The position numbers and the translations under genes were made by a program. Shown here in pieces: positions 4,909-23,270 of a stretch of DNA of 24,384 nucleotides; position 1 is the first letter of the stretch, and each line of letters begins with the position of its first letter. The notes under the pieces were generated by a model, which saw only the letters and a list, made by a program, of their open reading frames with translations, had not been told where the DNA came from and ran no database searches. Origin of the DNA: Candidatus Bathyarchaeota archaeon BA1 (GTDB taxonomy: Archaea > Thermoproteota > Bathyarchaeia > Bathyarchaeales > Bathyarchaeaceae); assembly GCA_001399805.1 (NCBI GenBank), contig LIHJ01000038.1:1-24384 (forward strand), read 5' to 3'.

Positions 4909-4994
4909 GTAAAATTTTACAAACAATTGTGAGATATCGAAGGGAGCAGTTTTATGCGCTTCATAGGGAGCCTTCTCGACAGGGCATCGGAAAG

Positions 4995-5276
4995 ATGATA
5001 AAGGAGGATGCCACGGGTTCAGAGCTGATGTTGGGGGTGAGGCCCGAGGATATATTGGTACGAGGCGAGGGATTGTCTGGAGCCTTCGAGGCTGAGGCCT
5101 ACGCGATGGAGCCATTGGGGAGAGACGTTATTGTCAACCTAAGACTCAATGACATCATAATCAAGATGATGACCACACCCGCGTTTAGAGCTGGCATAGG
5201 CGAGAGAGTCTGGGTAGGCTTCGACCTAGACAAAATGCACCTTTTCGACATGAAGACGGAAGAGGCCATACTCTAA
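4995..5276 (+). pseudogene. Orphan TOBE-domain remnant of a second MalK-like ATPase
   Basis: From ATG 4995 this frame encodes 93 residues that match the C-terminal TOBE region of the intact ATPase just upstream: LMLGVRPEDILVRGEG aligns with [30 protein letters not shown] with [14 protein letters not shown], and ERVWVGFDLDKMHLFD with [16 protein letters not shown]. No Walker A, signature or Walker B sequence precedes it; the frame upstream of 4995 does not resemble an ATPase. It is best read as the 3' end of a duplicated ATPase gene whose 5' three quarters were deleted. The codons remain open for about 90 positions, so loss may be recent or the domain may still be made; GGAGG occurs only inside the frame, not ahead of the ATG. 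A free-standing TOBE protein is the alternative. Confidence 0.7.
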
Positions 5277-6035: not shown

Positions 6036-6138
6036 AAGCTTTTCAATTTGATTTCAGGTCGGACCACTTGCATCATGTTGATTGGTCAATTGAAGGGGTT
6101 CTCAACCCAACCTAAGGAATTTGGCGAGGTTGGAAGCT

Positions 6139-6594
6139 GTGGCTAGGGGTAAACCTTGGACACGAGAGGAGATTCATCGGTTGCGGGAAATGATTGAGCG
6201 AGAGATGACCGCGGATGAGATCTTTAAAAGCGGGAAGTTTCCGGGAAGGACGTATCGAGCCATCGCTAAACAAATCCACATCCTGAAAAGCGGCTTAATA
6301 GTGCCACTAAACAAAAAATTTATAGTGCCACTAATACAGCCCGCCCCACAGGTCCTTCATCCCGAGGAAATCATTAAGCGGTATTGCTCAGCATTCAAGG
6401 GGATCTGCGAAACCGCCGAGCTAACCAGGGAGGAGCTGGAACGTTTCCGCATCATCTTCATGGCGGCTTGGAAATACACAGACATCTACGCTGAATATGA
6501 GAGGTTGAAGCAGATTGAGGAGCAGATGGAGGAGATTCGCAGACGCCTGGAGGCGTTGGAAGCTCAGAGTGGAGCTGCAACCAAGGCTGAATGA
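6139..6594 (+). CDS. Putative small terminase subunit (DNA-binding HTH plus coiled coil)
   Basis: About 151 residues. The N-terminal part (GKPWTREEIHRLREMIEREM, then TADEIFKSGKFPGRTYRAIAKQI) looks like a Myb/SANT-type helix-turn-helix. The C-terminal part is a charged coiled coil (ERLKQIEEQMEEIRRRLEAL). A DNA-binding head plus an oligomerising helix directly before a large terminase is the usual layout of a small terminase, which recognises viral DNA for packaging. The assignment rests on this layout, not on a matched family. The frame is open from TTG 6121, but GTG 6139 is preferred because GAGGT at 6126-6130 is well spaced. The end overlaps the large terminase frame. Confidence 0.55.
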   Translation: MARGKPWTREEIHRLREMIEREMTADEIFKSGKFPGRTYRAIAKQIHILKSGLIVPLNKKFIVPLIQPAPQVLHPEEIIKRYCSAFKGICETAELTREELERFRIIFMAAWKYTDIYAEYERLKQIEEQMEEIRRRLEALEAQSGAATKAE

Positions 6595-7984
6595 CTACAT
6601 CGAGAGGCTCAAAGTGGTGGAGGCATCAATTCAGCTCACCCACTTAAACCTGACAGCAGAGGAATTTTTTGGAAAGGTCTCGGGGTTCAAGCCCACGAGA
6701 TATCAAGCCGAGCTGGCCAGGCTTTTTCAGGAGAACCAATTCACGGCGGCCAGGTGGTGCCGCCAATCCGGTAAGAGCCACTTCATCGCCAGCCTCCTGC
6801 TTTATTATGCATTAACGCACCCAGGCTCATGGATAGGCGTTGTGGCTCCTGGACTGAGACAAGCCAAGTACGTCATCCGCAAGATCGAGTTGTTCCTCAA
6901 AAAGATGCCAGCCAGCAAGTACCTTTGCCCACGGCCCATGCGGACGGCCCTGCACTTCACCAACGGAAGCAGCATAGAGGCCTTCCCAAACAATCCGGAG
7001 ACTATACGAGGCCCAGCCCTAAACGTTGTGTATTGGGATGAGGCCTGCCTCACACCAAACGATGAGGAGCTATTTGACGCTGTTTTGTTCACGTTGGGAG
7101 CCACCGGTGGAAAGTTCATCTGCTCGAGCACGCCTTGGAGAAAGGACTCCGTCTTCTATAAGATCTTCCATCATCGAGCCTTCGGAGACTTCGCCGTTAG
7201 CCACGTCACATGGGAGCAGGCTGTCGAGCCTTACGGCCCGTTAAAAAGCAGCATCCTGGAGAAGATCCGAAACCAGTATGCGGAGGATCCTTGGCGTTGG
7301 AGACGTGAGATGGAGGCAGAATGGGCTGAAGACGAGACGACGTGGCTCAGCCAAGACCTCATCACCAGATGCATAGCAACCGAGAGGACCCTCGGCTATG
7401 AATTGGAGCTCTGGGATCCCGACGATGTTCACAAAGGAGCTGAGCTCTATGCTGGCTTGGACCTCGGCAAACATAGGGACTACAGCGTCCTCGTAGTGAT
7501 CGAGAAGGTGAAAGGCGTTTTCCTGCTCCGCTACGTGAAGATCTTCCCTTTAGAGACGCCATACGCCACCGTGATCGGTTGGGTGAAGACGCTTCAGGAC
7601 CGTTGGGGAGGGTTCCGCTGCATAAGAGTGGACATGACCGGTGTGGGTGATTATATCGTCGAGGACATGACAAATGCTGGAATAGAAAACGTGGAGGGCG
7701 TGCTGTTCACGCAGTTCCGTAAGCGGGAGATGGCAAGCCTCCTAAAGGAGCGAATGAAAAGCAAGCAGTTCTACTTCCCATACTTTGAGTTTAACCTGCC
7801 ATACTACCGCAGCTCCTACGTGGCTGAGCTCCACGTTGAGCGATTTGAGCTCACCAAAGATGGCTCCATCAAGTTCAGCCACCCGGCGGGAAGTAAAGAC
7901 GACGTCTTTTGGGCCACAGCCCTTGCGATTGTTGCGACAATGGAGTTAGGTCCAGAGCCATTCTTGGCGGTGGCTCCGCGTTAA
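6569..7984 (+). CDS. terL: Terminase large subunit (DNA-packaging ATPase/nuclease)
   Basis: Motor and nuclease that packages and cuts viral DNA. Visible motifs (numbered from the in-frame TTG at 6515): Walker A-like RQSGKS (83-88), Walker B VVYWDEA (Asp175, Glu176), coupling motif CSSTPW (203-208), and an RNase H-like nuclease with GLDLGKHRDYS (Asp316), RVDMTGVG (Asp373) and SKDDVFWA (Asp462/463). Both catalytic halves look intact over about 470 residues, normal for the family. Possible starts are all non-ATG: TTG 6515, GTG 6569, GTG 6614 (GAGAGG upstream). I use 6569; conserved sequence begins only near FKPTRYQAELARLF. No portal, capsid or protease gene follows; the next frame is interrupted after about ten codons. 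Confidence 0.9.
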   Translation: MELQPRLNDYIERLKVVEASIQLTHLNLTAEEFFGKVSGFKPTRYQAELARLFQENQFTAARWCRQSGKSHFIASLLLYYALTHPGSWIGVVAPGLRQAKYVIRKIELFLKKMPASKYLCPRPMRTALHFTNGSSIEAFPNNPETIRGPALNVVYWDEACLTPNDEELFDAVLFTLGATGGKFICSSTPWRKDSVFYKIFHHRAFGDFAVSHVTWEQAVEPYGPLKSSILEKIRNQYAEDPWRWRREMEAEWAEDETTWLSQDLITRCIATERTLGYELELWDPDDVHKGAELYAGLDLGKHRDYSVLVVIEKVKGVFLLRYVKIFPLETPYATVIGWVKTLQDRWGGFRCIRVDMTGVGDYIVEDMTNAGIENVEGVLFTQFRKREMASLLKERMKSKQFYFPYFEFNLPYYRSSYVAELHVERFELTKDGSIKFSHPAGSKDDVFWATALAIVATMELGPEPFLAVAPR

Positions 7985-9045: not shown

Positions 9046-9121
9046 CTCCTCGAAAAAGCGCTTTAAAGGTACATGGCACGATAAAAGTTTCCCCAGAAGC
9101 CGATCAAGGCAAATCTGATGA
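9046..9121 (-). pseudogene. PAP2 phosphatase 3'-end remnant A
   Basis: Read on the minus strand, this piece encodes IRFALIGFWG, then with one extra base removed TFIVPCTFKALF, matching the C-terminus of the intact phosphatase at 15186-16187 (IRFALIGFLGTFIVPCIFRT). Only about 25 codons remain, with a frameshift. It is joined head-on to the symporter remnant at about 9113-9121, where both parents share CTGATGAT, so the joint probably arose through this short homology. Confidence 0.7.
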
Positions 9122-9766
9122 TTTGCTATATGTGGAGCTGGCTCTCGGCTATGGTCCCATTTTTCACTAAGTATGTTATTGGCGCGGGTGAACAAGAGAT
9201 GGGGATCTTGTTTCTCGCCATGTTTATTACATCGATGGCCCTATACGCCCTCTGGAGGAAAGTTGTCATCCGCTACGGCTCGAAGCAGACGCTAATCATG
9301 GCTGTAACGCTATTTGTAGCGTTTCTGTTTCCCGTTCTGGTCGTTGGCAACTTTATGCAGGCACTCACGATGATGCTTTTCGCTGGAGCTGCAAACTCAG
9401 GGATAACCCTCACCAGAGAAGTTGTGCTCAGTGATGTGATAGATGAGGATGACATCAACACTGGCGTTAGGACGGAGGGCACCTACTTCGGGGTAAACGC
9501 ATTCATTGAAAGATTTGCAATGGTTATCGTCGGAGGTACAACGGCCTTAGCCTTAGGTTTAAGCGGGTATGTTCCAGGCTTAATAACACAGCCTCCATCT
9601 GCAGTTTTTGGAATTAGACTTGGCATGACGATGCTTCCGCTCGCAGCCCTTCTTGTTTTCCTCATCTCGCTAAAATATTATCCATAAGGTCGAGAGAGAG
9701 TCGCCGAAATGAAAAAAGGCTCTTGAAAAGCTTCACAGACAGAAGGCGGAGCGAATGAAAAATTAA
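9113..9766 (+). pseudogene. Remnant of a GPH-type sugar symporter (C-terminal half)
   Basis: Encodes the second half of a symporter like the intact one at 12007: MWSWLSAMVPF aligns with IWSLLSAMGPF, WRKVVIRYGSKQTL with WRKICIRYGTKKTL, NSGITLTREVVLSDVIDEDD with NSGVTLVREILMPDVIDEDQ. By eye about 45 % of residues agree. The N-terminal half is missing, a stop (TAA 9685-9687) interrupts where the relative has Leu, and after a further frameshift the tail is recognisable as LLEKLHRQKAERMKN up to TAA 9764. It is therefore dead or at most a half protein. Its position directly before a corrinoid/methyltransferase pair mirrors the intact copy. Confidence 0.85.
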
Positions 9767-9770
9767 TATA
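9763..9770 (+). promoter_or_regulatory. TATA-like box and Shine-Dalgarno of corrinoid gene 1
   Basis: TTAATATA lies 36 bases before ATG 9806; GGGAGGA at 9792-9798 is a strong ribosome-binding site. With the upstream symporter dead, this promoter may let the corrinoid/methyltransferase pair be transcribed on its own. Confidence 0.4.
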
Positions 9771-9805
9771 GAGACGATTTCATCTTAACTAGGGAGGAAA
9801 ACGAG

Positions 9806-10444
9806 ATGCCAAATCAAGTATATAAGTTTGCAATGGAATTGAAGCCATTTGAAGCCGAGGAAGAAATTAAACGACTTTTGTTAGCCCAAATAAGCGCTGA
9901 TGAAATTTTGGGGTCTCTGCAAAAAGCAATGATAGATGCCTGTGAAAAGTATCATGCGGGGGAGTTCGCCATTCCTCATCTCTGGGCCGTGGTGACAACT
10001 TTCAGCATGGGATATAAGCTCATTAAGGATAGAGTGAAAGGGGGAGAGAAAGGAAAAGTTTTGATGGGAACTCTTGGCTCCATGCATTACATTGGGAAAG
10101 ACATCATAAAGTTCTTATTCATGGCCAATGGGTTCGAGGTCCGCGATTTAGGCGAAAATTTATTGGCTGAGGATTATATAGATGGCATAAGAGAATTTAA
10201 CCCGGATGTAATTGGGGTGTCGATATTTCTTACAAACGCCATTCCCTCTCTTCGGGAGATTGTGGAGTTCATGAAGAAAAGTAGCCTTAGGGATAGAATG
10301 AAAATCATAATAGGCGGTGTACAAGCAAATTCCGAAGTTGCTAAAAAATTTGATGTCGATGGATGGGCTCGCGACCCTAAATCGGCTCTTAGCTTAGTAA
10401 ACACTTTGATGGATGAATTGAAAAAGGTGAAAAGACGTGGCTGA
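9806..10444 (+). CDS. Corrinoid (B12-binding) methyl-carrier protein, copy 1
   Basis: Carries a methyl group on a cobamide between methyltransferases (MtaC/MtbC-like layout, 212 residues). Residues about 12-80 form the helical methionine-synthase-like cap; about 83-208 the Rossmann-like B12 domain. The lower-ligand motif normally D-x-H-x-x-G reads S92-M-H94-Y-I-G97: the histidine that binds cobalt is kept, its aspartate partner is serine. The other B12-pocket motifs are visible as S139-I-F-L and I-I-G170-G171. The start ATG 9806 has GGGAGGA seven bases upstream. The stop overlaps the start of the methyltransferase gene, so both are made together. Its duplicate at 13427 is frameshifted. Confidence 0.88.
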   Translation: MPNQVYKFAMELKPFEAEEEIKRLLLAQISADEILGSLQKAMIDACEKYHAGEFAIPHLWAVVTTFSMGYKLIKDRVKGGEKGKVLMGTLGSMHYIGKDIIKFLFMANGFEVRDLGENLLAEDYIDGIREFNPDVIGVSIFLTNAIPSLREIVEFMKKSSLRDRMKIIIGGVQANSEVAKKFDVDGWARDPKSALSLVNTLMDELKKVKRRG

Positions 10445-11519
10445 AATGATGGGTTTGGAAAGAGCTCTCATATATCTACAAGGTGAAAAGCCAGATAAGA
10501 TGCCCATTTGGCATGAGTCAGTATATTTAGCTTGGAAATACTCCGGCGTTCCGAGTTTAAGGCAATACGTTTACAATCCTGAGGCAATAGTGCGAGGACA
10601 TATGAACTATGCTGAAAAATTCAAAGTCGACATAACAGGGGTGAACATCGATATTTGGTGGATGTATGAACCATTCGGCGCTCAAGTTGATATTCGGGAC
10701 CACATAATTCAGCCAAAAGCCCCTCCATGGCGTTATAGACCAGACCCAAACATTTATGAAAAAATAGAGTATCACGACCCTAAGGAGGGAGAGAGGGCTA
10801 AAATAATGTTTGAGGCATGGGAGACCGCCCATAGAAAATATGGGAATAAAATTCTCATAAGACAGGGATGGTTTGGGCCCATAGCGATGCTTGGCTTAAC
10901 GTTTGGAATGCCGGAATTAATGAGGGACGTTGTGGTTTTTCCAGAAGTGATAGGGGCAATAGAGAAAGCTGTGAGGGATGTTTTATTGGATTGGGCCGTT
11001 GATTTTGCGAAGGCAATGATCGAGGCAATGAAGCCCAATGTCACCAATTTCTGCATGTGTTTAAGCGGATATGATAAATCGATGGTCGGCAGGGATTTAG
11101 AGGAATATGTAAGTAAATTCGATTTAGAATATTTAAAAAAGGTAAGAGAATACATAGGCAAAGATGTTCCTATCACGACTCATATTTGCAGCTACGATCC
11201 AGACCTGGATTTCATATACGAAAAATTTGGAAAATACATAAATGAGCTTCAATTTTACGCTCCCGGATCAACCTATCCCTTAGAGGAGGCTGTCAGAAAG
11301 TTCGGCGATAAGATACCAATTTGTGCTGGGATAGACCACCTTGGCACCTTATTTGCTGGCACCCCAGTTGATGTTGAAAGAATGGTGAAACGCTCCATTG
11401 AGCTGGGCAAACAATGCATTAGCTTCGCCTTGGGTCCAGGTTGCGGTCTTGGTTATGGTACGCCAGAAGAAAATATTTGGATGGTAACGGAAGCTAGAGA
11501 TAAATATGGGGTATATTGA
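10437..11519 (+). CDS. UroD-family corrinoid methyltransferase, copy 1
   Basis: A TIM-barrel methyltransferase of the uroporphyrinogen-decarboxylase superfamily (relatives: MtaA, MtbA and several O-demethylases), 360 residues. A zinc site of the MtaA kind is visible: H249-I-C251 (TTHICS) and C336 (ALGPGCGLG). With the overlapping corrinoid gene it should move a methyl group onto or off the corrinoid; which direction and which substrate cannot be read. The start GTG 10437 is supported by AGGTGA at 10425-10430 and by overlap with the upstream stop. The N-terminus (MMGLERALIYLQGEKPDKMP) is typical. It is intact, unlike the duplicate at 14084-15152. Haem synthesis is unlikely given the corrinoid partner and the zinc motif. 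Confidence 0.85.
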   Translation: MAEMMGLERALIYLQGEKPDKMPIWHESVYLAWKYSGVPSLRQYVYNPEAIVRGHMNYAEKFKVDITGVNIDIWWMYEPFGAQVDIRDHIIQPKAPPWRYRPDPNIYEKIEYHDPKEGERAKIMFEAWETAHRKYGNKILIRQGWFGPIAMLGLTFGMPELMRDVVVFPEVIGAIEKAVRDVLLDWAVDFAKAMIEAMKPNVTNFCMCLSGYDKSMVGRDLEEYVSKFDLEYLKKVREYIGKDVPITTHICSYDPDLDFIYEKFGKYINELQFYAPGSTYPLEEAVRKFGDKIPICAGIDHLGTLFAGTPVDVERMVKRSIELGKQCISFALGPGCGLGYGTPEENIWMVTEARDKYGVY

Positions 11520-11783: not shown

Positions 11784-11985
11784 TTATCCCTGCTTACCAA
11801 AAAGTGCTCTAAAGATACATGACACGATAAAAGTTCCTCCGAAGCTGATCAAGGCAAATCTGATGAAGCGTAACCAGATTTCTCCGCGTAAGGCCTGTCC
11901 GAGAAAAATCTGCATCCTGAAAATCAGAAGTAGACCGATTGCTACTTTAGCTACTTGCTTCTCAAAAGAATATTTTATAAGTTAA
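11784..11985 (-). pseudogene. PAP2 phosphatase 3'-end remnant B
   Basis: On the minus strand about 65 codons remain open and end at the original-type stop (TAA at 11786-11784): KQVAKVAIGLLLIFRMQIFL, GQALRGEIWLRFIRFALI, GGTFIVSCIFRALFGKQG. This matches the last 60 residues of the intact phosphatase (KVAIGLFLVFLMQMFLGWVL and onward) at roughly three residues in four. All catalytic motifs lie in the missing part and a stop precedes the fragment, so no function is expected. The end of the fragment overlaps the promoter of the symporter gene. Confidence 0.8.
11973..11981 (+). promoter_or_regulatory. TATA-like box of the symporter-corrinoid-methyltransferase operon
   Basis: TTTTATAAG ends 26 bases before ATG 12007, which would give a transcript with almost no leader. 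No clear Shine-Dalgarno site is present ahead of this ATG (GTAGGGTTTGG), consistent with leaderless or near-leaderless translation. Confidence 0.45.
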
Positions 11986-12006: not shown

Positions 12007-13425
12007 ATGTCTATGATAGGCAGGTTGAGAGGTAGACCTGGAAAAATAGCTTATGGCTTTGGCAATCTTGGCACAGCGCTTATCTTCCATTCAATAGGTT
12101 CATTTTTGATATATTTTTACATTAATGAGGTTCGTCTCGATCCCGCCTTGGTCGGACTTGGGTTTTTGATCTCCTATGGAATCTGGAATTCCATAAACGA
12201 CCCGATCGCTGGATACATCTCAGACCGGACTCGAACGAGGTGGGGGCGCAGGATACCTTTTGTTCTGTTCTGTACGCCATTGATGATGTTATTTTTTATT
12301 CTATTGTGGTCTCCGCCAGTTGGGGGTGTGCCCTTGCCTACGCCTTACAACATTTGGATATTTCTCTATTTCATCGTCATTGTAGGAATTTTCGAGCTCG
12401 TGTATACTTTCGTCGGTGTTGGGTGGGGCGCGCTGTTCCCGGAGATGTTTCAGGATCTTAAAGAAAGAACCGAGGTATCCATTTATAGACAAGTCGCCGC
12501 AATGATCGGGAGCATGGTAGGCTTCGTTCTAACGCCGCTAATTATAGCCTCTCTTACCGGAAGATTGGGCACTTTCAGCGGGTGGACATTGACGGGAGTA
12601 GCCCTAGGTTGCATTGGGGGTTGCGCCTACTTGACATCCCTGCTCGGAAGCAGGGAGCGGAGGGAGTTCAGCGTGGCGGGGACGTTGCCAATCAAAACAG
12701 CGTTTAAAGTTACCCTTACAAATAGATCCTTCCTCACCGCTGCCTTCTGCGTTTTAATGATCAGCTGGATTTGGAGTCTGCTTTCGGCGATGGGCCCCTT
12801 TTTGGTTGTGTATATGCTTGGAGGGGCCCTCGCTGATGTTGCCCTTGTGAGTTCTCCTATTTTCTTCATGGGAATACTCTTCTACCCGCAATGGAGAAAG
12901 ATTTGCATCCGCTACGGTACGAAGAAGACACTCATCATTGCTACATTCTTATCGGCCTTATTTCTTTTACCCCTTTTATTGGTAGCAGATACCATTTTGA
13001 AAGCGACCTTGATGATGCTTTTCTATGGGTTCGCGAACTCTGGGGTAACTCTCGTGAGGGAGATCCTGATGCCCGATGTGATAGATGAGGACCAAATTAA
13101 GACAGGCTTTAGGAGGGAGGGCATATATCTGGGAGTGGGCACGTTCGTAGATAGGTTCGCGCTAGCACTCACTGGTGCCAGTACCGTTCTCGTCTTTAGC
13201 TTAACTGGTTTTGTCCCTGGGGTTCCCCAGCCCTCACATGTTATCTTGGGCATGAGACTCGCAACCGCTATGATTCTCATAGTGGCCCTGCTCGGGTTTT
13301 TAGTTTCAATGAAATACTACCCCCTAGGGGCTGAGAAAGTTGTTGAGATAAGGAGGATGCTTGAAAAGCTCCATGGGGAGAGAGCCGAGCGACTAAAATT
13401 GGTTGCCGAAAAGAGGGAAGGGTAA
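12007..13425 (+). CDS. GPH-family (glycoside/pentoside/hexuronide) cation symporter
   Basis: A 472-residue carrier of the major facilitator superfamily with about 12 membrane helices. The cation- and sugar-site region of the GPH (MelB-like) family is clear: N64-D65-P66 (SINDPIAGYISDRTRTRWG) and the following loop RWGRRIP (78-84). The C-terminal half carries the family signatures WRKICIRYGTKK and DVIDEDQ. It should import a glycoside, pentose or hexuronide with H+ or Na+. Its stop is one base from the ATG of the corrinoid gene, so transport and methyl transfer are probably one operon; that suggests an O-methylated sugar or glycoside as cargo. A half copy lies at 9113-9766 and a 53-bp copy at 8032. 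Confidence 0.88.
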   Translation: MSMIGRLRGRPGKIAYGFGNLGTALIFHSIGSFLIYFYINEVRLDPALVGLGFLISYGIWNSINDPIAGYISDRTRTRWGRRIPFVLFCTPLMMLFFILLWSPPVGGVPLPTPYNIWIFLYFIVIVGIFELVYTFVGVGWGALFPEMFQDLKERTEVSIYRQVAAMIGSMVGFVLTPLIIASLTGRLGTFSGWTLTGVALGCIGGCAYLTSLLGSRERREFSVAGTLPIKTAFKVTLTNRSFLTAAFCVLMISWIWSLLSAMGPFLVVYMLGGALADVALVSSPIFFMGILFYPQWRKICIRYGTKKTLIIATFLSALFLLPLLLVADTILKATLMMLFYGFANSGVTLVREILMPDVIDEDQIKTGFRREGIYLGVGTFVDRFALALTGASTVLVFSLTGFVPGVPQPSHVILGMRLATAMILIVALLGFLVSMKYYPLGAEKVVEIRRMLEKLHGERAERLKLVAEKREG

Positions 13426-13426
13426 A

Positions 13427-14078
13427 ATGGTAACAGAGGAGATCTTAGAGAGAAAAATCGAGGAGCATTTGAAAAGTATATTTAAATATTTTTTAGGCTT
13501 TAAGTTTTTCGAGACGAAGGGAGAAATAAAGCAAGCCTTGGAGGCTGGGGTGCCTAGTAATGAAATAATAAGAACCCTTTTGAGAGCGTTTCATGAGGCT
13601 GTTGAGAAATACGAGAAAGGTGAATACTGCATTGCTCATCTAACAGCTTCCTCCTCCATCTTTGAGACAGGATACAATTTAGTAAGATCGGAGATTAAAC
13701 CTAAGGGTAAGGTCATCATAGGCACGCTAGGGTCTTCACATTATCTCGGAAAGGATATCGTGAGGTTGCTACTTGTGGCGGATGGATTTGAAGTTGTCGA
13801 TTTGGGAGAAATAGTCTTCCTGAAGATGTTATAAGGGCCATTGAAAGGGAAAGGCCTGACATTGTGGGTCTATCCGTCCTCATTATAGCATGCCTCCCGT
13901 TGCAGAAGGAAGTTATAAGATTACTCAAAGAGAAAAGTCTAAGGCAAAAAGTGAAGGTCATGGTGGAGCCGTAACCTCTCAAAGGTGGGCATCGGAAATA
14001 GGGGCGGACGGTTGGGCTCCAAATGGTCCACTCGCCGTTAAGGAAGCAAATAGATTGTTGGAGGAGCTTAGGAGGTAA
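13427..14078 (+). pseudogene. Corrinoid methyl-carrier protein, copy 2 (two frameshifts)
   Basis: Duplicate of the gene at 9806. The ATG 13427 lies one base after the symporter stop. The frame codes for the helical cap and the B12 motif S-S-H-Y-L-G (again Ser for Asp), then shifts near 13817 (after VVDLGEIV; one base missing before PEDVIRAIERERPDIVGLSV) and again near 13963 (after VKVMV; GGAVTSQRWASEIGADGW follows in the third frame). Read through the shifts, the whole protein to TAA 14076-14078 aligns with copy 1 and with the protein at 22614. Both shifts are losses of one base. No other damage is seen, so it is either a very young pseudogene or a sequence with base-calling errors. Confidence 0.8.
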
Positions 14079-14083
14079 GGTAA

Positions 14084-15152
14084 ATGGTCAGGATGACCGG
14101 ATTAGAAAGGGCTTTATGCTATTTAAGGGGGAAAAACCAGATAAAATACCCATCTGGCATCAATCTGTCGACCTCTCCCGAGCACTTGCGGGTGTTTCGA
14201 TGCGTGAATTCATCTTTGACGCGAGGAAAATAGCTTTCGGACACATAAGATATGTGGAAAATTACAAGGTTGACATCTCCGGCGTAGGTACAGACATGTG
14301 GTGGATGCTCGAACCCTATGGAGTTGAAGTCGAGGTCACTGATTATCTAATTTATCCGAAGAAAACTCTTGCAAGCCGCAAAGAGCCAAACCCGGCGATA
14401 TATGATGAACTTGAATACCGCGATCCATTTGAAGGTAGAAGGGCTAAAATTGTGCTGGAGGCTTGCGGAATTGTTTCCAAGGAAATCGGCGATAAGATAT
14501 TACTAAGGCATGGATGGTATGGACCCCTTGCGAACCTTGCCCTCGTGGTTGCGTAAAAGAAGCCTTTAGGGACGTTATACTCTTCCCGGATGCTGTCTTT
14601 AAGGCCGCAAAGAGGGTTTTCTTGGACTGGACGGTGGACTTTGTCACGGGCTTTTGTGAGGGCATGAAACCCAACGTAACGAATATTTGCTGGGCTATGA
14701 CCACTTTCGATAGGGAACCGCTTCCAAAAGAATTCATGAATGAGGCTGCAAAACTCGAATTAGAAGCCTTCAAAAGGATAAGAGATAACTTAGGCCATGA
14801 CTTACCTGTTACGACACATCTTTGTAGCCCAAGGCCAAATCTGGATTTCGTGGTAGAGGAATTCGGCGAGCATATAAATGAACTTCAATATTGGCGGCCC
14901 GGATCGGATTATCCGCTAGAGGAGGCTGTAAGAAAGTTCGGCGATAGATTCCCGATCATGGCGGGCATAGATCACACCAAAACTATGCTGATGGGCACAC
15001 CTAATGAAGTTGAGGTGATGGTTAAGAGATCCATATGCATAGCTAAAGGTCGATGCAGCTTTGCTCTTGGACCCGGGTGCGAACTTGGTTTAAACACACC
15101 CGAGGAAAACATTTTAGCGCTTGTAAAAGCAAGGGGCAAATACGGATCCTAG
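14084..15152 (+). pseudogene. UroD-family corrinoid methyltransferase, copy 2 (two frameshifts)
   Basis: Duplicate of the gene at 10437. Read from ATG 14084 (GGAGGTAAGG upstream) it gives MVRMTGLERALCYLRG, then a base is missing in a G run near 14126 (GEKPDKIPIWHQSVDL continues in the next frame), and another near 14548 (LANLALV, then VKEAFRDVILFP in the third frame). The zinc motif H-L-C (TTHLCS) and the later Cys (ALGPGCELG) are intact, as is the C-terminus to TAG 15150-15152. The last 110 residues agree with copy 1 at roughly 60 % by eye. With no stop other than those caused by the shifts, loss must be recent, or the indels are sequencing errors. Confidence 0.8.
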
Positions 15153-15171: not shown

Positions 15172-15187
15172 AAGCTGAGCACAGCTT
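15172..15187. terminator. Hairpin between convergent genes
   Basis: AAGCTG (15172-15177) and CAGCTT (15182-15187) pair perfectly around AGCA, between the methyltransferase end (15152) and the convergent phosphatase stop (15186). No T run follows on the plus strand. It may slow both converging transcripts; weak support. Confidence 0.3.
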
Positions 15188-16187
15188 ATTCTTGCTTACC
15201 AAAAAGTGTTCTAAAGATGCATGGCACGATGAAAGTTCCCAAAAAGCCTATTAAAGCAAATCTGATGATACGCAACCAAACCTCTCCACGCAATACCCAT
15301 CCGAGAAACATCTGCATCAAGAAAACCAGAAACAGGCCAATTGCTACCTTGGCTAGTTGCCTTGTAAAAACAACCCGAACGGGAAAACGGACGTAGCGAC
15401 GTTCTAGCGAATATCCTATAACAACACCAAGGGACGTGCCTGTGACCATGGTAACAGTAGAAATCGAAGGTTTAGGTGTTAAGGGCGGTTCTGGATAGAT
15501 GATGAAGAAAAGAACTGGAATAACCGTGCCAAGAGCCAGTCGCCAAAACATCGATAATGCAACTTGCTTTTTATCCCAAAGTCGATAGATGATGAACCCA
15601 AACCACACTAAGGCGATGCCCATAGCAACCCCGCCAAGTATGTCTGACGGCCAGTGCGCCCCTCGATAAATTCTCGAAAGCCCCAGCAGAGGAATAGCGA
15701 TCAAAGTGATAGTAATCAAAGGTTTTCTTCTGTAAAGTCCAGCGAGATATGCAAATAGAACAGTTGAATTCATCACGTCGCCACTTGGAAAGGCGAAGCT
15801 GCCATCAGGGGGCTCAGCAAGAAAATAAACTTGGTCAGCCGCGGGACGAGGAATGCGGAAGATATCTTTTGCAGCGGTATGAAGGTAGCCTGAGGCGAGA
15901 AGGACCAGTAAAAATCTCAGTCCGAGCGTTGGATTAACGCACCAGTAGAGAATAACCGCCACGATGGTGATGAAGTCGTCTTTACCTAGGTAACCAATAA
16001 AACTAAAGAGGCCATCAAGTGGAGGAGAGCGAAAAGATTGTAGCCAGAAAATGAAATCGAGCTCCCGATCAACCTGCGTTGGCGGCCGAATTTTTACGTA
16101 TATCGTAGTCATAATGATTATTGTTATTAAAAGGGTCGTGATAATTATGGCTACGTATTCCTTTTTCAATGTTGTCAATTTTTTCAA
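15186..16187 (-). CDS. PAP2-family membrane phosphatase with altered PSGH motif
   Basis: A 333-residue membrane protein of the PAP2 (phosphatidate phosphatase / undecaprenyl- or dolichyl-diphosphate phosphatase) superfamily. The three motifs are visible: KDIFRIPRP (K-x6-R-P), PSGDV where the family has PSGH, and SRIYRGAHWPSDILGG (SR-x5-H-x3-D). The His of motif 2 is Asp, while the nucleophilic His of motif 3 is kept. It has an N-terminal anchor helix (YVAIIITTLLITIIIMTTIY), several further helices and an extra C-terminal pair (KVAIGLFLVFLMQMFLGWVL and later). The start TTG 16187 has GGGG about six bases upstream. Remnants of its 3' end lie at 9046 and 11784. A role in lipid-carrier recycling or phospholipid turnover is inferred from the family. 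Confidence 0.8.
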   Translation of the reverse strand: MKKLTTLKKEYVAIIITTLLITIIIMTTIYVKIRPPTQVDRELDFIFWLQSFRSPPLDGLFSFIGYLGKDDFITIVAVILYWCVNPTLGLRFLLVLLASGYLHTAAKDIFRIPRPAADQVYFLAEPPDGSFAFPSGDVMNSTVLFAYLAGLYRRKPLITITLIAIPLLGLSRIYRGAHWPSDILGGVAMGIALVWFGFIIYRLWDKKQVALSMFWRLALGTVIPVLFFIIYPEPPLTPKPSISTVTMVTGTSLGVVIGYSLERRYVRFPVRVVFTRQLAKVAIGLFLVFLMQMFLGWVLRGEVWLRIIRFALIGFLGTFIVPCIFRTLFGKQE

Positions 16188-16285: not shown

Positions 16286-18874
16286 TTACTCACCTATTTT
16301 AGCCTTAAGGGTAACGATTTTGTAGGGTTTAATATCAATTTTAAAGCCATTTTCTGGCTCTACCTTTGCTAGAGATTTTTCATCTAGGGTTGAAATCCAG
16401 AGGTCTTCTACTGCTTGAAAGAATTTTATGCGACCTGAAATTTCCTCATCGCTAATGTTATAAAACCTCACCACTAGGGCATCTTCATCTTGGGATTTCT
16501 TCACTGCAGTCAGGACCAGTTTGTCCGGGTAAATCTCAAGAAAATGTCTCTCCGGGGGCAGATTGCCTTCATGCACTCCCGTTTCAAACGCTATTAATGG
16601 CATGTTGAAGTTGTAGGCCTCTTTATATGCTCTGCTTTCAAGCCAGTCTCCATCATGTGGAATTATGGAATATTCGAACCGATTTGTGCCTAGACACTGC
16701 GCCCCGGGAGTTGGGATTATTGGGCCTATCTTTTCGTCTCTCGAAAGCCAGCCGACGCATCTTAAAAGTGTTAATAAGATCTGAAGGCAACCTTGTTTCC
16801 TCACCTCATATTCAGGCAACCCCTTGTTTGCTACCATCAAGCCTGTTGCCCCATTATTTATATCGACAAAGAAACGTTGTGGGTGAGTAGTTGGAGGATG
16901 GTCAATCCAGTTTTCTCCCTTTGGAGGAATTATTGGTCTTTTTGTAACGTGAAATTGATCATGGGCAAAGGATTTGGTTGCACCGTCTTCAATTCTTAAG
17001 TTTGTTGGGAAGATCGCGCGAAGTTTATGATCTTTAGCTTGATTATTGATTTCACCACTAATGTCGATGCGTGGGATTTTGAGGTAAGTAGAAATATTCA
17101 TGGCAATAGGGCAAGGGACATAGTCGCTTCCTCTGTCACCTTTTTCATTAAGCTCTCTAGGTATGAGCATGTCTAGCTTAACCTTGAGAGTTGCCTTTAC
17201 TGGGCCTCTTTCGATAACTTCAATCGAGGCCTTTACGCCTTTACTAATAACGGTAGGTGGGGTGGGAAATGAATAATACTCATCTCCGGCATCGCCTTCG
17301 TCTTCAAGCTCGTTCAGATTTTTATAAACTCTGCCACTTCTTTTATCAACGGCACTCATGGAACCGCCGTTTTCAGGGTCAATACTAACTTTGAGGATTT
17401 CATTTTCAAGCTCGTTTTCACCGCACCTCAAGTGAAAGCTAAATTCAGGAGGTTTCTCAGATTCAACAATAGCGAAAGTTTTGTAGCCGCATGGCGGGAC
17501 ATCTTCCGCCATAAAAACTAAGCTGATTTTACTTGAGTCAGCGCTAATTATCTGATACGGCATGCTTTGTCCATCTGGAGCTTTAATCTCGAAATATCTT
17601 GTTGTGGGTTTTGATATTCTAGCTTTAACCACCTCAGACCTTGACCAATTCAAAGGATTAAAAACGAGGACCGCTGCTTTAGCCTCTTTACATGTGGTCT
17701 TGACCCCTTTTGAGATGAAGTTCAGGCTATCCTCAATGATGGCTTCAGCTATCTGCTTCACCCACAGAAATCGCAAAACGTTTTCCCTGTGGATTTCATC
17801 TATGCATGTGCAACATATGGTGTCATGGGCCTGGTTTTGTATGAGATATTTCCAAGCCTTCAATAGCAAGCCTGAAGGATATCTGTATCCAAGCATCCAA
17901 GCGTAGGTGGCAAGCGGCTCTGCGTAATATTGAAGTATTGTCTGGGCTAGGATGTTCTCACGCTTTAGATAGAGCCTACTTGAAAGCACCCCGGCTAGAA
18001 TGGCGTGATATCTTGCTCCTCTCAGCTCTCCCTGATAAAGGCCCAGCTTCACGTTCGCCCTTTTTATACTTTCAACATAATCCACCAAGCTACCGTGCAT
18101 GAGGACTTCTCGACCTAAAAGCTTGTTCACCCTCTCGATGATGACGGGAATCTCCTGTTGAATTGAGCGATGATCGCAGCCGTTCATCAATAGTATGTAA
18201 TTCGTCGACGCCTTTGGCAATAGCTCTGACTTAAGCCATTCTAACATCGGCAGAGCCTCCTTTGGGTCTTCGCGAATTTTTTCCCTCGACTTCCCCAATA
18301 AATGAGCCATTTCAAGGTCAGCGTTACAATAGCCCTTTAGAAGGTGAACCGCAAGAACCTCGGACCCATCTGGAGCGCGCCATATAAACTCGGTCTTAAG
18401 CTTTTCTCCCTCGTCGCCCATCCCCCTTGTAAAAATGAAAGAGTCGATGTCAAAGCCCCTCAAGAGTTGCGGCAGTTGGGCGATGTGTCCAAAAGAGTCT
18501 GGAACATAGCCGACGGGCATCGCTCCTCCGTGCTCTTTTGCCATTCTTAGCCCGATGATCAGATTCCTGATTAACGCTTCATCACCCTCCAAAAACTCAT
18601 CCATCTGAATGTACCAGGGCCCAACAAAAAGTCGCCCCTCCTTCACAAGGCGTTCGATCTCCTTTCTTCGCTCGGGTTTTATCTCGAGGTAGTCCTCAAG
18701 AATTGCCGTTTGACCATCAAGGGTAAAACTTCTAAATTTTTCGTCTTTATCAAGCACCTCAAGAATCTCATCCATTATGTGCAACAACCTTGCCCTGAAT
18801 CTTTGATATGGCAAATACCACTCCCGGTCCCAGTGGGTGTGAGAAACGATTATAGCCTGATAATCTTCGCTCAT
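16286..18874 (-). CDS. GH38 alpha-mannosidase
   Basis: A glycoside hydrolase of family 38 that removes alpha-mannose from glycans or oligosaccharides; 862 residues, normal for prokaryotic members. The zinc-site motif HTHWDREW is at 12-19 (His14 and Asp16 as ligands), the nucleophile region GYVPDSFGH at 122-130 (Asp126), and a later zinc ligand in the QAHDT segment. The C-terminal half is the all-beta region of the family. It has no signal peptide, so it acts in the cytoplasm on imported sugars. The start ATG 18874 has GAGGTTGAGG directly upstream. It lies 119 bases behind the isomerase-like gene on the same strand and probably shares a catabolic unit with it. Confidence 0.93.
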   Translation of the reverse strand: MSEDYQAIIVSHTHWDREWYLPYQRFRARLLHIMDEILEVLDKDEKFRSFTLDGQTAILEDYLEIKPERRKEIERLVKEGRLFVGPWYIQMDEFLEGDEALIRNLIIGLRMAKEHGGAMPVGYVPDSFGHIAQLPQLLRGFDIDSFIFTRGMGDEGEKLKTEFIWRAPDGSEVLAVHLLKGYCNADLEMAHLLGKSREKIREDPKEALPMLEWLKSELLPKASTNYILLMNGCDHRSIQQEIPVIIERVNKLLGREVLMHGSLVDYVESIKRANVKLGLYQGELRGARYHAILAGVLSSRLYLKRENILAQTILQYYAEPLATYAWMLGYRYPSGLLLKAWKYLIQNQAHDTICCTCIDEIHRENVLRFLWVKQIAEAIIEDSLNFISKGVKTTCKEAKAAVLVFNPLNWSRSEVVKARISKPTTRYFEIKAPDGQSMPYQIISADSSKISLVFMAEDVPPCGYKTFAIVESEKPPEFSFHLRCGENELENEILKVSIDPENGGSMSAVDKRSGRVYKNLNELEDEGDAGDEYYSFPTPPTVISKGVKASIEVIERGPVKATLKVKLDMLIPRELNEKGDRGSDYVPCPIAMNISTYLKIPRIDISGEINNQAKDHKLRAIFPTNLRIEDGATKSFAHDQFHVTKRPIIPPKGENWIDHPPTTHPQRFFVDINNGATGLMVANKGLPEYEVRKQGCLQILLTLLRCVGWLSRDEKIGPIIPTPGAQCLGTNRFEYSIIPHDGDWLESRAYKEAYNFNMPLIAFETGVHEGNLPPERHFLEIYPDKLVLTAVKKSQDEDALVVRFYNISDEEISGRIKFFQAVEDLWISTLDEKSLAKVEPENGFKIDIKPYKIVTLKAKIGE

Positions 18875-18993: not shown

Positions 18994-20508
18994 CTAAACA
19001 TGTTCTTCAACTACCTCTAGTCCGAGTAATCTAGCTGCAGCTTTGAACTCCTGTCTTAAATCTCCGAGGAATGATACCTTATGCCAACCAAATACATTTT
19101 GATCATGTTTCTCTAGTATCCCGGCGGCATTCGTCTCTACAAGCAACTTATCTCTACATGCCTTCTCATCTTCAACCAGACCTAGGCTTCTGCCATATCG
19201 GATACAGATCTTCCCGTGAAGTACACTTACCTTTACAGTTGTGACATCCTCCCCGGATGGGAACCTGACCACGGGTGATGCTCCCAGAAAATGCGCTTCA
19301 CCATGTTTCGTTATATAATATTCTAAAGGTGGTTTATCATATCCATGCAACTTAGTTGGCGACATACAGTGAAGGTATGTTGCACGGTTATGAGGCACAT
19401 CCAGACAGTAGTTACCCATCATTCCAGGTCTACCAACAACATACCTTCCTAGGAGCAGAGTTACTGCTGAGTCCACATCTGATTCGCAGGCAGCAGTTGT
19501 TCCTTCATCGTTCAACTTAGAGAATGCCATACATGGAAATGCGGGTATCTTACCTGACATTAAAACTGGACAGCATTCGATTCCCACAGCATCGCATCCG
19601 GTATCCTCAATTAGCTTCTTTAGCGCTAGGTAAAGTCTTGCCGCGTTTACTATTGTTTGGCGTGAAGCATTGACTCTCTCAGCGTTTCTTACCCATTCAT
19701 CGGCTATTCTCTCGGCTTCCTCAGGGCTGGCGTTCTCATAATACCTACAGAGATCACTAGGCTCACATCTAACCATCTCCAAACCAAAGATACGCCTCAA
19801 ATTCTCCTTATACTTATCCACATTCCTTCTCCATTGGACGGCCTGGTCCACGCCGTGAACATCAACTGAAACTTTATCGTCAGACAAAATTCCCGTTAAC
19901 CACTCCTTTGCTTCTTCACCGACTTTTTCAATATCGGTACCTAAGAGGTCGGTCAATAACCTCCTTCTATCTTCCTTATTCCTAACCACCTCAGCTTCAT
20001 CAAAGGTGAAAATCATGATCCTCTTTTCTCTCATTTCATGTAGTCTCTCCATGATTCCTATGGCCTTTTCGAAATCCTCGAGGTCTGAAGAGGACACCGG
20101 GAGAACGGAAAGTTTTCTTCCTCTAACTCTCTCATATATCCGGATAAATCCCCAGTCTCCTCCATACATATAGCTTGCCAAAACAGTGGGCTTTCCGACC
20201 TCTATAGACTCAACTCCGATGTTATCAATTAGCGGATTTGTCCCATAATTCCCAACTATACAGAGGAAAACACCGTCTGTATCTTTTATACCTCTCTTGA
20301 TCTCCCACAACTCTTTGGCATCGTATCTTGAAACAACTTTACTTCCTGTAAACTCTATGTGGGGAAACTTCTCCTTTAATCTTCTTATGATTGATCCACA
20401 CAGTTCTTCTTCATCATATCCAACATAGGGCCAACCAATTCCCCATTTGCCTTTCCCTAAAAATAATGTATAGATCTTCATTGAATAAGGCGTTTTACTT
20501 TGTTGCAT
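18994..20508 (-). CDS. L-fucose/L-arabinose isomerase-like protein
   Basis: A 504-residue cytoplasmic protein of the FucI/AraA-like fold. The C-terminal half carries the recognisable metal and substrate region: CPVLM, PAFPCMAFSKLNDEGTTAAC and ESDVDSAVTLLLG, in which Glu and Asp of DEG and ESD fit the manganese ligands, and then GMMGNYCLDVPHNRATYLHC. It should interconvert an aldose and a ketose, but members of this group have diverged in substrate and the exact sugar is open. Start: ATG 20508, or ATG 20481 (MKIYTLFLGKG), where family similarity begins; neither has a Shine-Dalgarno site. It is 44 bases behind the esterase gene, on the same strand as the mannosidase, which suggests one transcript. 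Confidence 0.78.
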   Translation of the reverse strand: MQQSKTPYSMKIYTLFLGKGKWGIGWPYVGYDEEELCGSIIRRLKEKFPHIEFTGSKVVSRYDAKELWEIKRGIKDTDGVFLCIVGNYGTNPLIDNIGVESIEVGKPTVLASYMYGGDWGFIRIYERVRGRKLSVLPVSSSDLEDFEKAIGIMERLHEMREKRIMIFTFDEAEVVRNKEDRRRLLTDLLGTDIEKVGEEAKEWLTGILSDDKVSVDVHGVDQAVQWRRNVDKYKENLRRIFGLEMVRCEPSDLCRYYENASPEEAERIADEWVRNAERVNASRQTIVNAARLYLALKKLIEDTGCDAVGIECCPVLMSGKIPAFPCMAFSKLNDEGTTAACESDVDSAVTLLLGRYVVGRPGMMGNYCLDVPHNRATYLHCMSPTKLHGYDKPPLEYYITKHGEAHFLGASPVVRFPSGEDVTTVKVSVLHGKICIRYGRSLGLVEDEKACRDKLLVETNAAGILEKHDQNVFGWHKVSFLGDLRQEFKAAARLLGLEVVEEHV

Positions 20509-20552: not shown

Positions 20553-21362
20553 TTAAAGGCTCAACGCCTTTTCGAACCAGTCGGCCGTGTGCCTTATCAC
20601 GGCCCATTGCCAGTCCCAACGATTGAATGTATGATCAGCACCATCAACGAAAAACTTCTGCTTAGGCTCTTTGGCTCCCTTATATAATTTTTCTGCCTGC
20701 CAAATTGGGATGTACGGGTCTTTAGTGCCATGTATTATTAACAAGGGTCTTGGAGAAATTTTTACAACACTTTCTAAAATGTTATGTTTTGGTGCATCGA
20801 TCAAAAACTCGCGGCCGATGCGGTCCCCTGAAGGCAAATCGATGTAGCTTTTAGCCACCAACTTTTCGATCTCGATTTCTCCAAAAACGATTTTTGCGGC
20901 GTTTTGTAGCGCTCTGAACTCGGCGGGCGTGCTCCAAGTGCACAAAGCCCTTATCCTTTCATCCCGAGCAGCTGTTAAAATTGCCACCACGCCGCCCAAG
21001 CTGAGACCAGTAACCCCTATCTTATCCTTTAGGACCTCCTCCCTTTCATAAAGCCAACTGAGGGCCGCTTCTAAATCACTTATCTCCCTTGAAATTGTCA
21101 TCGATTGAAACGATCCCTCGCTCTCACCTGAGCCGCGAAAATCAAAGCGCAGGGCTGCAAAACCCCTCTTACATGATTCCCTTGCGGCATACACAAAGAG
21201 TCTATGCGCCTCAATTCTATTTCCAGTGAAGCCATGGCAGAAGATTATGGTCGGCGCTGGTATGCACTCTGGTATATGAAATACTCCAACCAGCTTTTCT
21301 CCTTCATTCATAAAAAATACATATTCCTCTTTCACTTTATCGACCTCAATTTTACTGATCAT
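20553..21362 (-). CDS. Alpha/beta hydrolase resembling cinnamoyl/feruloyl esterases
   Basis: A 269-residue cytoplasmic serine hydrolase. The catalytic triad is visible: Ser121 in G-L-S-L-G-G, Asp215 in HGTKDPYIP and His244 in DGADHTFNR. The oxyanion segment CHGFTGN (42-48) and the block LRFDFRGSGESEGSF (71-85) followed by MTISREISDLEAAL resemble the cinnamoyl/feruloyl esterase branch (for example Lactobacillus LJ0536: HGFTAN, RFDFNGHGDSDGKF, recalled, not searched). The enzyme would split an ester, possibly between a phenolic acid and a sugar. A TATA-like GTATAAAAAT (plus positions 21411-21420) precedes it. The gene is first in a minus-strand series with the isomerase and mannosidase and is divergent from the methyltransferase at 21547. 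A general carboxylesterase is the alternative. Confidence 0.82.
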   Translation of the reverse strand: MISKIEVDKVKEEYVFFMNEGEKLVGVFHIPECIPAPTIIFCHGFTGNRIEAHRLFVYAARESCKRGFAALRFDFRGSGESEGSFQSMTISREISDLEAALSWLYEREEVLKDKIGVTGLSLGGVVAILTAARDERIRALCTWSTPAEFRALQNAAKIVFGEIEIEKLVAKSYIDLPSGDRIGREFLIDAPKHNILESVVKISPRPLLIIHGTKDPYIPIWQAEKLYKGAKEPKQKFFVDGADHTFNRWDWQWAVIRHTADWFEKALSL

Positions 21363-21522: not shown

Positions 21523-21546
21523 GTTAAACGATGGCATGTGATTCAT

Positions 21547-22617
21547 ATGAAGCCTAGGGAGCGCATATTCAAAGCATTAGAGCGGGAGGAGCCAGATCGT
21601 ATCCCAATCTTCGATTGGGATTTCCTTCGTTTGGATATGAGGGGAATCATCAAGGACTTGATTGGAACCATTGAAAGTCCAAGCGTTGATCCGATAAGAG
21701 CCTGCGGTTTGGTAGGTCTAGATGCTACTATCGTGAAACCAAGCATTTCTGAACAGAAAATAAGAAAGAATGTCTGGATGGACGAGTGGGGGGTTAAACA
21801 CAGAATAATAACCGACGCGACTGGTCAGAAAAGATCCTTCGCCGTTGAACCTGCAATAAAAACAAAGGAAGACATGGAAAGTTATGAAATGCCAGATCCT
21901 TGCGCGGAAGAAAGAATGAAACCCGTCAGGGAAGTAATGAAAATTCCTTGGGAGAAACCCTATATTTTCGGGCACCCGCAACCAGATGGTCCGGCATTTG
22001 TTTTGCACCTTAGGGGTTACGAAAAAGGACTTACAGATCCCTATATGCATCCAACTCTTTTCAAAGGATTAATACATAAAGTGACCGAGTTTAGCATAGA
22101 AGTATGCAAGATGATGATAGAGGAGGGCATAGAGGTCTTTATATTTGGTGATGACATAGCCTACAAAGATGGGCCCTTCTGGTCTCCGAAAATACTTAGA
22201 GAGTTCTTCTTCCCTGAATATAAACGAATAGTGAGAGAGCTGAAAAGATATGGTGCACAATTTGTAATAAAGCATACCGATGGAGACATCAGCCTAATGA
22301 TAGATGACATAATTGACGCTGGTTTTGACGTCCTTCACCCGATAGAGCCGCCTTACATGAGTCTTAAGGAGGTAAAAGAGAAATATGGCGATAGAATAGC
22401 TGTGATGGGAAACGTGGATTGTGCCCACATCTTACCTTTTGGATCTCTACTCGACGTTGAAAGGGATGTTATAAGATGCATTCGAGAAGCAGCGGAGGGC
22501 GGGGGCTATATCTTATCATCAAGCAACTCTATTCATTCGGGAGTGAAGACAGCCAATTTTATCTGGATGGTTCAATCCGCTAAGAAATATGGAAAATATC
22601 CCATAAGTGGTGTATGA
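21547..22617 (+). CDS. UroD-family methyltransferase, divergent type (candidate O-demethylase)
   Basis: A 356-residue TIM-barrel protein of the uroporphyrinogen-decarboxylase superfamily, paired with a corrinoid protein by an ATGA overlap (22614-22617). It is a different subgroup from copies 1 and 2. The N-terminus MKPRERIFKALEREEPDRIP is typical; instead of H-x-C it has KHTDGD (H246-T-D248, numbered from GTG 21538), and near the C-terminus SSSNSIHSGV (327-336) instead of GPGC. The metal site, if present, must use other ligands. Such proteins commonly take methyl groups from methoxylated substrates, so it is a candidate methyltransferase I. The start is ATG 21547 (see promoter); GTG 21538 would add three residues. 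mtrH lies convergent 845 bases downstream. Confidence 0.82.
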   Translation: MKPRERIFKALEREEPDRIPIFDWDFLRLDMRGIIKDLIGTIESPSVDPIRACGLVGLDATIVKPSISEQKIRKNVWMDEWGVKHRIITDATGQKRSFAVEPAIKTKEDMESYEMPDPCAEERMKPVREVMKIPWEKPYIFGHPQPDGPAFVLHLRGYEKGLTDPYMHPTLFKGLIHKVTEFSIEVCKMMIEEGIEVFIFGDDIAYKDGPFWSPKILREFFFPEYKRIVRELKRYGAQFVIKHTDGDISLMIDDIIDAGFDVLHPIEPPYMSLKEVKEKYGDRIAVMGNVDCAHILPFGSLLDVERDVIRCIREAAEGGGYILSSSNSIHSGVKTANFIWMVQSAKKYGKYPISGV

Positions 22618-23270
22618 AAGTGTCAAGAAAAGAGGTAACGGATAGGTTGGCCAGAGCCATCGCAGACTTAAGGATGGAAGAGGCAAATAAGTCATTAAAT
22701 GATGCCATAGAGACGGGCGTCCCTGTCTCTGATATAATACAAAATGGCTTAGTTAGGGGGATGGAAATCGTTGGGGAGAGGTATGAGAGAAAGGAATATT
22801 TTCTCTCTGAGCTAGTGTTATCGGCAATGATAGTGAAATCATCCATAAGAACCCTCAAGCCACATCTTCCTAAAGAGGGGAGAGAAATATCGGGTAAGGT
22901 TGTTGTAGGGACGATTAAAGGCCAGATCCATGATATAGGTAAAGACTTGGTTGCAACTTTACTGGAGACCTCCGGCTTTGAGGTCTACGATTTAGGTTCC
23001 GATGTCCCCCCTGAAAAATTCGTTGAAAAAGCAAAAGAAGTGAATGCGGATATAATAGCGATCTCTGCCCTCCTTACAATGACGCTCACTAATATTGAAA
23101 AGGTTATCCAGATGCTCGAGAAAGAGGGGCTTAGGGACAAAATTAGTGTGATGGTGGGTGGAAGGGCCGTTACAAAGGAATTTGCCGATAAGATAGGGGT
23201 TGCCTACGGAGAAACAGCTTTTGATGCTGCAAAGATAGCAAAAATGCTAACCAAGAAAAAGTGGCAATAA
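22614..23270 (+). CDS. Corrinoid (B12-binding) methyl-carrier protein, copy 3
   Basis: A 218-residue MtaC/MtbC-like protein, full length. Residues about 5-90 are the helical cap (KEVTDRLARAIADLRMEEAN), 93-215 the B12 domain. The lower-ligand motif reads Q104-I-H106-D-I-G109 (GTIKGQIHDIGKDLV): the cobalt-binding His is present but the usual Asp is Gln. The pocket motifs S151-A-L-L and V-G-G183 are normal. It overlaps the methyltransferase gene by ATGA, so it is the cognate carrier. It should hand the methyl group to a second methyltransferase; mtrH, convergent and 190 bases away, is the obvious candidate. It is more similar to standard methanogen carriers than copies 1 and 2. Confidence 0.9.
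   Translation: MKVSRKEVTDRLARAIADLRMEEANKSLNDAIETGVPVSDIIQNGLVRGMEIVGERYERKEYFLSELVLSAMIVKSSIRTLKPHLPKEGREISGKVVVGTIKGQIHDIGKDLVATLLETSGFEVYDLGSDVPPEKFVEKAKEVNADIIAISALLTMTLTNIEKVIQMLEKEGLRDKISVMVGGRAVTKEFADKIGVAYGETAFDAAKIAKMLTKKKWQ

Follow-up and report, generated by a model that had tools for sequence, protein, structure and literature searches.

A GPH symporter gene linked to an unusual corrinoid protein and a zinc UroD-type methyltransferase in Bathyarchaeia: candidate module for import and demethylation of O-methylated sugars

Introduction

The Mto clusters of Archaeoglobus (fulgidus AF_0006-0013) and Methermicoccus shengliensis are described, in passages of PMC8359953 and PMC8630106, as bringing together the genes of a corrinoid protein, a methyltransferase and a transporter of the major facilitator superfamily (MFS), with an MtrH-like enzyme as methyl acceptor. 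A lignin-methoxy system of Bathyarchaeia, as outlined in part of PMC10989822, involves MtgB, a protein of about 300 amino acids (aa) without homology to known MT1 enzymes, which was combined there with the activase of Acetobacterium dehalogenans, and the demethylase passages of PMC11697101 also concern lignin aromatics. Among the open-licence literature we found no paper on an anaerobic corrinoid route for the demethylation of O-methyl sugars. Sugars of this kind occur in surface glycans. One of them, 3-O-methylmannose, has been found in one archaeal S-layer, according to a passage of PMC2948927. The stretch of DNA analysed here, called the window throughout, consists of 24,384 bases (G+C 45%) of contig LIHJ01000038.1 from Candidatus Bathyarchaeota archaeon BA1, and carries a GPH/MelB-type sugar symporter gene joined to the genes of a corrinoid protein and a zinc UroD-type methyltransferase. 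We compare this three-gene set with its relatives and weigh the reading that it serves the uptake and demethylation of O-methylated sugars.

Results

The set is present twice in the window, as follows:

9118-9687, + strand: what remains of the copy-1 GPH symporter, limited to its C-terminal part (189 aa; Pfam profile match)
9806-10444, + strand: corrinoid protein of copy 1, intact (PF02310; S-x-H-Y-x-G replaces DxHxxG)
10437-11519, + strand: copy-1 methyltransferase of zinc UroD type, intact (H249-x-C251 and C336 are invariant)
12007-13425, + strand: GPH/MelB-type symporter of copy 2, intact, 472 aa (PF13347 or MFS_2, 216 bits, over the cut-off of 27; TIGR00792, 195.9 bits, under the cut-off of 231.35)
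13427-14078, + strand: copy-2 corrinoid protein, its gene interrupted by two changes of frame (63% identity to the protein of the related locus L006 over the N-terminal part)
14084-15152, + strand: copy-2 methyltransferase of zinc UroD type, its gene likewise interrupted by two changes of frame (75% identity to the proteins of L006 and L010 over the C-terminal part)

A protein search with the methyltransferase retrieved 27 relatives at E 0.001, including the window's own copy-2 fragment and the distant P0027, and 12 loci were compared, ten of them from a scan of species genomes and two from further genome searches. The corrinoid gene lies upstream of the methyltransferase gene in 11 of 11 testable loci, the corrinoid matches of L002 being in two frames, and a GPH gene is adjacent to the methyltransferase gene or one gene off in 10 of 10 testable loci, from archaea, Chloroflexota and Hakubella. 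On the same strand, the GPH gene stands directly 3' of the methyltransferase gene in eight archaeal loci (L001, L002, L003, L004, L005, L009, L023 and L024) and after one intervening hydrolase gene in two bacterial ones (L008 and L010); the stretches of L003 and L004 end inside the GPH gene and that of L007 ends in a GH38 gene. GPH matches over the cut-off number only 25 in the approximately 21 Mb of the 12 carrier genomes, and we estimate that a GPH gene would fall in this neighbourhood by chance about once in a hundred per locus. Since GPH genes are so sparse in the carriers and yet stand at the methyltransferase gene or one gene off in all ten testable loci, their linkage is more than chance: it is real, conserved and apparently undescribed. 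The original prediction had proposed to look for such linkage, and for conservation of gene order, across genera; the former is found in archaea and bacteria alike and the latter extends to the corrinoid gene preceding the methyltransferase gene, but the usual order is corrinoid-methyltransferase-GPH and the GPH-first arrangement of the window is not the common one.

An alpha-glycosidase gene of family GH38 or GH63 is present in 6 of the 12 loci, GH38 in L007 and L008 and GH63 (PF22422) in L006, L010, L023 and L024, in the last two on the opposite strand and beyond the GPH gene; L001, L002, L005 and L009 gave no GH38 or GH63 match in the available stretch. At L008:1524-3862 (Hakubella) the corrinoid-methyltransferase-GH38-GPH row has before it an extra UroD-type gene and one of the creatininase family.

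The joints of copy 2 are exactly those claimed in the prediction, one base separating the GPH stop from the corrinoid ATG at 13427 and five bases the corrinoid stop (14076-14078) from the methyltransferase ATG at 14084, and the gene identities were right as judged by profiles. Of the claimed three-gene unit, however, only the GPH gene is intact: frame shifts near 13810-13835 and 13955-13970 interrupt the corrinoid gene, and others near 14120-14130 and 14545-14556 the methyltransferase gene, neither having a single open frame, so that one intact GPH gene and one intact corrinoid/methyltransferase pair result from copies 1 and 2 together. Three copy-2 fragments tested against L006 look protein-coding, with synonymous change near saturation (pS 0.751-0.841) and low amino-acid change (pN 0.144-0.227, the intact window genes used for comparison having pN 0.162-0.270). 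This low pN relative to pS, like that of intact genes, suggests that the frame breaks are recent lesions or sequencing artefacts. Breaks in the corrinoid gene are not peculiar to the window, as that of L002 is in pieces as well. At L002:7084-7694, on a Nitrososphaeria contig, the gene matches in two pieces, with no single open reading frame (ORF) of at least 120 aa there.

Positions 9113-11519 had been described in the prediction as an older copy with the same order. The corrinoid/methyltransferase pair is indeed intact there, but the GPH gene is reduced to a remnant spanning profile positions 243-424 of 427, and copy 1 cannot be taken for a simple duplicate. Two deep clades appear in a tree built from the C-terminal part of the methyltransferase (38 rows). 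One, of 25 rows, includes copy 1 and has only archaea among its named members; the other, of 13 rows with copy 2 itself counted, contains all the bacterial rows (Chloroflexota, Bacillota and Hakubella). This placement is at odds with a simple or recent duplication. The C-terminal part of the copy-2 methyltransferase is 75% identical to Dehalococcoidia proteins, the intact GPH symporter is nearest, among the GPH proteins placed in a tree, to archaeal ones of another locus type (70-71%), and the copy-1 remnant is about 60% identical to the GPH proteins of L008 and L010 (Hakubella and Dehalococcoidia). Horizontal transfer and shuffling would fit the presence of two such copies. The 3' end of the PAP2 gene listed below is found three times (9053-9121, 11784-11967 and 15186-15369), as repeats reported to be 78-87% alike and in step with the two GPH-corrinoid-methyltransferase units.

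The DxHxxG motif is incomplete in the aligned corrinoid proteins of this clade: all 8 of 8 keep its His but have Ser where its Asp would be, in an alignment from which L002, L003, L004 and L007 were left out. The eight proteins also lack one residue just before the position of the motif. For the copy-1 protein the best match in the PDB is 4jgi, annotated as uncharacterized, which we take to be an O-demethylase corrinoid protein. The methyltransferase belongs to the UroD/MtaA superfamily and its gene adjoins that of a B12-binding protein. It has the UroD fold and a His-x-Cys...Cys motif, presumably the zinc motif of the thiol-methylating MtaA, of which the alignment to MtaA showed the last Cys alone, and a PDB profile search recovered MtaA, plus CdmB at E 0.018, and nothing else.

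The window further contains:

457-4908: ABC sugar-type importer (Pfam matches)
4842-5276: ORF with a VRPED motif that looks by eye like the end of another ABC ATPase, directly after an intact ABC ATPase gene
6515-7984: phage-type terminase large subunit gene (PF03237, 55.5 bits)
15186-16187, - strand: PAP2 membrane phosphatase (Pfam)
16286-18874, - strand: GH38 alpha-mannosidase-type glycoside hydrolase (Pfam and NCBIfam)
18994-20508, - strand: sugar isomerase-like protein with L-arabinose isomerase fold (predicted fold; no Pfam match)
20553-21362, - strand: alpha/beta hydrolase, esterase-like (Pfam)
21538-22617, + strand: further UroD-type methyltransferase, which lacks the HxC zinc motif (NCBIfam/Pfam, alignment)
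22614-23270, + strand: second corrinoid protein, nearly ordinary (NCBIfam/Pfam, alignment)
23462-24379, - strand: MtrH/MtgA-like methyl-corrinoid:tetrahydropterin methyltransferase (Pfam and NCBIfam)

The GH38 protein carries N-terminal, middle and C-terminal Pfam domains, with four domains over their cut-offs, and scores 528.3 bits against the mannosylglycerate hydrolase model PRK09819, under its cut-off of 1138. The closest named relatives of the isomerase-like protein are from Bathyarchaeia (64-66% identity), which by itself would make the window probably archaeal. The ORF at 4842-5276 is probably the remnant of an ABC ATPase gene, and the terminase region is perhaps an inserted element that cut the first GPH gene. 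A small gene precedes that of the terminase, and the region with both (6121-7984) separates the GPH remnant from the ABC importer.

The genomes G204 (L046), G095 (L056) and G009 (L057) encode close relatives of the window's GPH protein. In all three the GPH gene stands with an isomerase-like gene (44-46%) and an alpha/beta hydrolase gene (68-69%), in two of them with PAP2 (G204 and G095) and in G204 alone with a GH38 gene that is about 66% identical; a UroD-type gene is present at two of the three loci, in pieces in G095, and no corrinoid gene match was obtained in the L046, L056 and L057 stretches. These three genomes all carry a corrinoid-methyltransferase-GPH locus elsewhere, and the window unites both gene sets in one stretch. 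Still closer GPH relatives exist, such as P0056 (83%). In G003 a GH38 gene is followed by a gene of the L-fucose isomerase family. Beside the UroD-type and isomerase-like genes, L046:5883-6911 and L056:10983-12014 encode a protein of 342-343 aa without Pfam match.

The reductive activase family PF14574 is present in 11 of the 12 carrier genomes (8 of 8 archaea), the exception being G004, as compared with 133 of the 398 genomes of a phylum sample, 5 of which are carriers; kinship among the carriers weakens this comparison of frequencies.

Discussion

The neighbourhood and its conservation, the protein families, the predicted fold, the zinc-type residues and the activase found in most carriers are the basis on which we propose, tentatively and with a confidence that stops just short of even, that the linked genes form a transferable catabolic module importing an O-methylated, alpha-linked sugar or glycoside and demethylating it in a corrinoid-dependent manner. 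A sugar or glycoside is the likeliest cargo because of the hydrolases and the sugar isomerase-like gene in the neighbourhood, in agreement with that part of the original prediction; as for the rest of it, we infer the O-methylated state of the cargo and the removal of its methyl group, and with them which way the methyl group moves, in what order the steps follow and what accepts it. The GPH symporter would import a small O-methylated sugar or alpha-glycoside, from which the zinc UroD-type enzyme, in an MT1 role, could free the sugar alkoxide with the zinc of its His-x-Cys...Cys motif acting as Lewis acid, the methyl group being taken by the Co(I) corrinoid protein. The alpha-glycosidase (GH38, or GH63 in other loci) would cut the glycoside, the freed aldose might be taken up by the enzyme of arabinose isomerase fold and, in the window, tetrahydromethanopterin may receive the methyl group by way of the MtrH-like enzyme. 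Somewhat more doubtful is the wider proposal that hot-spring-type archaea and bacteria share this module horizontally and use it to import sugar methyl ethers, which would be demethylated by a new zinc UroD/corrinoid pair, its corrinoid protein being without the DxHxxG Asp, so that both the sugar and the one-carbon (C1) unit are used.

Several observations weigh against this proposal. To our knowledge no corrinoid enzyme cleaves an unactivated sugar methyl ether. The window GPH protein aligns Ala and Gly with Asp19 and Asp124 of MelB, which we take to be its sugar-binding aspartates. As regards the hydrolases, the genomes G001, G002 and G007 lack both GH38 and GH63, and the two families are common in control genomes (7/14 and 4/14). 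The activase gene is on a contig other than that of the pair in all 11 carriers having it, and MtrH, the only acceptor searched for, was found in 2 of the 12 carriers in addition to the MtrH-like gene of the window.

The remaining objections also speak for the alternative that survives best, namely that the GPH symporter carries an ordinary unmethylated alpha-glycoside and that the pair, merely co-transferred with it, serves another methyl donor or a thiol, as an MtaA-like MT2 or a thiol/amine system. The searches, with candidates limited by shared words and each count including one window protein, gave 157 proteins for GPH and 26 for the methyltransferase at E 1e-60 or better, and among 120 listed GPH rows at least 8 bear the name of Chloroflexota, Anaerolineae or Dehalococcoidia; the GPH clade being far wider than that of the methyltransferase, the usual cargo of the carrier may be unmethylated. 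Moreover, the nearest GPH relatives with known surroundings sit in loci without a corrinoid pair, G005 (the carrier of L007) has the pair and no GPH match in its whole assembly, and the methyltransferase, with a zinc motif and a fold of the MtaA type, could act as an MT2. On the other hand, the same-strand linkage is tight in archaea and in bacteria, with or without an intervening hydrolase gene. We judge this alternative unlikely, while giving it real weight.

Import and demethylation of methoxy-aromatics or their glycosides, in the manner of Mto or Odm systems, appears improbable. GH38 and GH63 enzymes act on alpha-glycosides, which makes the methoxyphenyl glycoside named among the possible cargoes in the original prediction less likely, and plant phenol glucosides are mostly beta-linked. 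The transporter is of the sugar-type PF13347 family and its neighbours are alpha-glycosidases and a sugar isomerase-like protein, features that speak against an aromatic cargo, although the match to 4jgi, presumably an O-demethylase corrinoid protein, would favour it, as would the Mto clusters published with the same parts, i.e. corrinoid protein, methyltransferase and MFS transporter (passages of PMC8359953 and PMC8630106).

We regard as quite improbable a function in the handling of glycosylglycerate-type compatible solutes (mannosyl- or glucosylglycerate), possibly methylated. The mannosylglycerate hydrolase model gives 528 bits for the GH38 protein of the window and 634 bits for that of L008, and the best match of the L010 GH63 protein is TTHA0978 of T. 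thermophilus, presumably a mannosylglycerate hydrolase; nonetheless, all these matches are under the curated cut-offs (1138 and 550 bits), the alpha-glucosidase YgjK is among the best GH63 matches and the top one for L024, and we know of no methylated form of a glycosylglycerate. By eye, the catalytic and sugar-site residues given in a passage of PMC6608630 look kept in the L010 enzyme, which nevertheless lacks the loop that bears the glycerate-site Tyr88; the enzyme of L024 is more divergent. Finally, operation of the pair in the building direction, methylating a sugar or a thiol, is highly improbable, for although corrinoid methyl transfer is reversible in principle and the activase shows only that Co(I) is kept, the genes lie with an importer and hydrolases.

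If demethylation of imported methyl sugars is what the module performs, it would add a substrate class to anaerobic methyl metabolism beside methanol and methoxy-aromatics, connect the breakdown of glycans with the C1 pathways of uncultured archaea and imply Co(I) cleavage of an unactivated alkyl methyl ether. The module supplies a small and concrete set of proteins with which the methyl-sugar question can be tested.

Comparison with described systems

The novelty claimed in the original prediction has to be qualified: the sugar-type carrier and the alpha-glycosidases do set the module apart, but an MFS transporter within methoxy-aromatic demethylase clusters had already been published (passages of PMC8359953 and PMC8630106). 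The module is accordingly filed as a variant of corrinoid-dependent demethylation systems, in which the principle of a transporter in the cluster is already known. It resembles Mto, as described in those passages, in grouping the genes of a corrinoid protein, a methyltransferase and an MFS transporter and in the MtrH-like enzyme of the window; it differs in its GPH transporter, in its alpha-glycosidase and sugar isomerase-like neighbours, in the MtaA-type zinc motif of its methyltransferase and in the location of the activase, where found, on another contig. With the MtgB system of Bathyarchaeia, whose cluster includes a transporter candidate, it shares a corrinoid protein and an MtgA/MtrH-like partner, and its UroD-type enzyme is set apart by the description of MtgB in part of PMC10989822. 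The symporter is like the GPH:cation symporters MelB, GusB and YjmB in scoring over the PF13347 cut-off, and unlike them in falling under that of TIGR00792, in having WNxxN in place of the WDxxN of MelB and in the loss of the MelB sugar aspartates from the window protein. The methyltransferase, for its part, departs from the methylcobamide:coenzyme M methyltransferases MtaA and MtbA, scoring 46.3 bits against the NCBIfam MtaA model, whose cut-off is 400, and being paired with an odd corrinoid gene in every testable locus; unlike them, it probably acts as an MT1.

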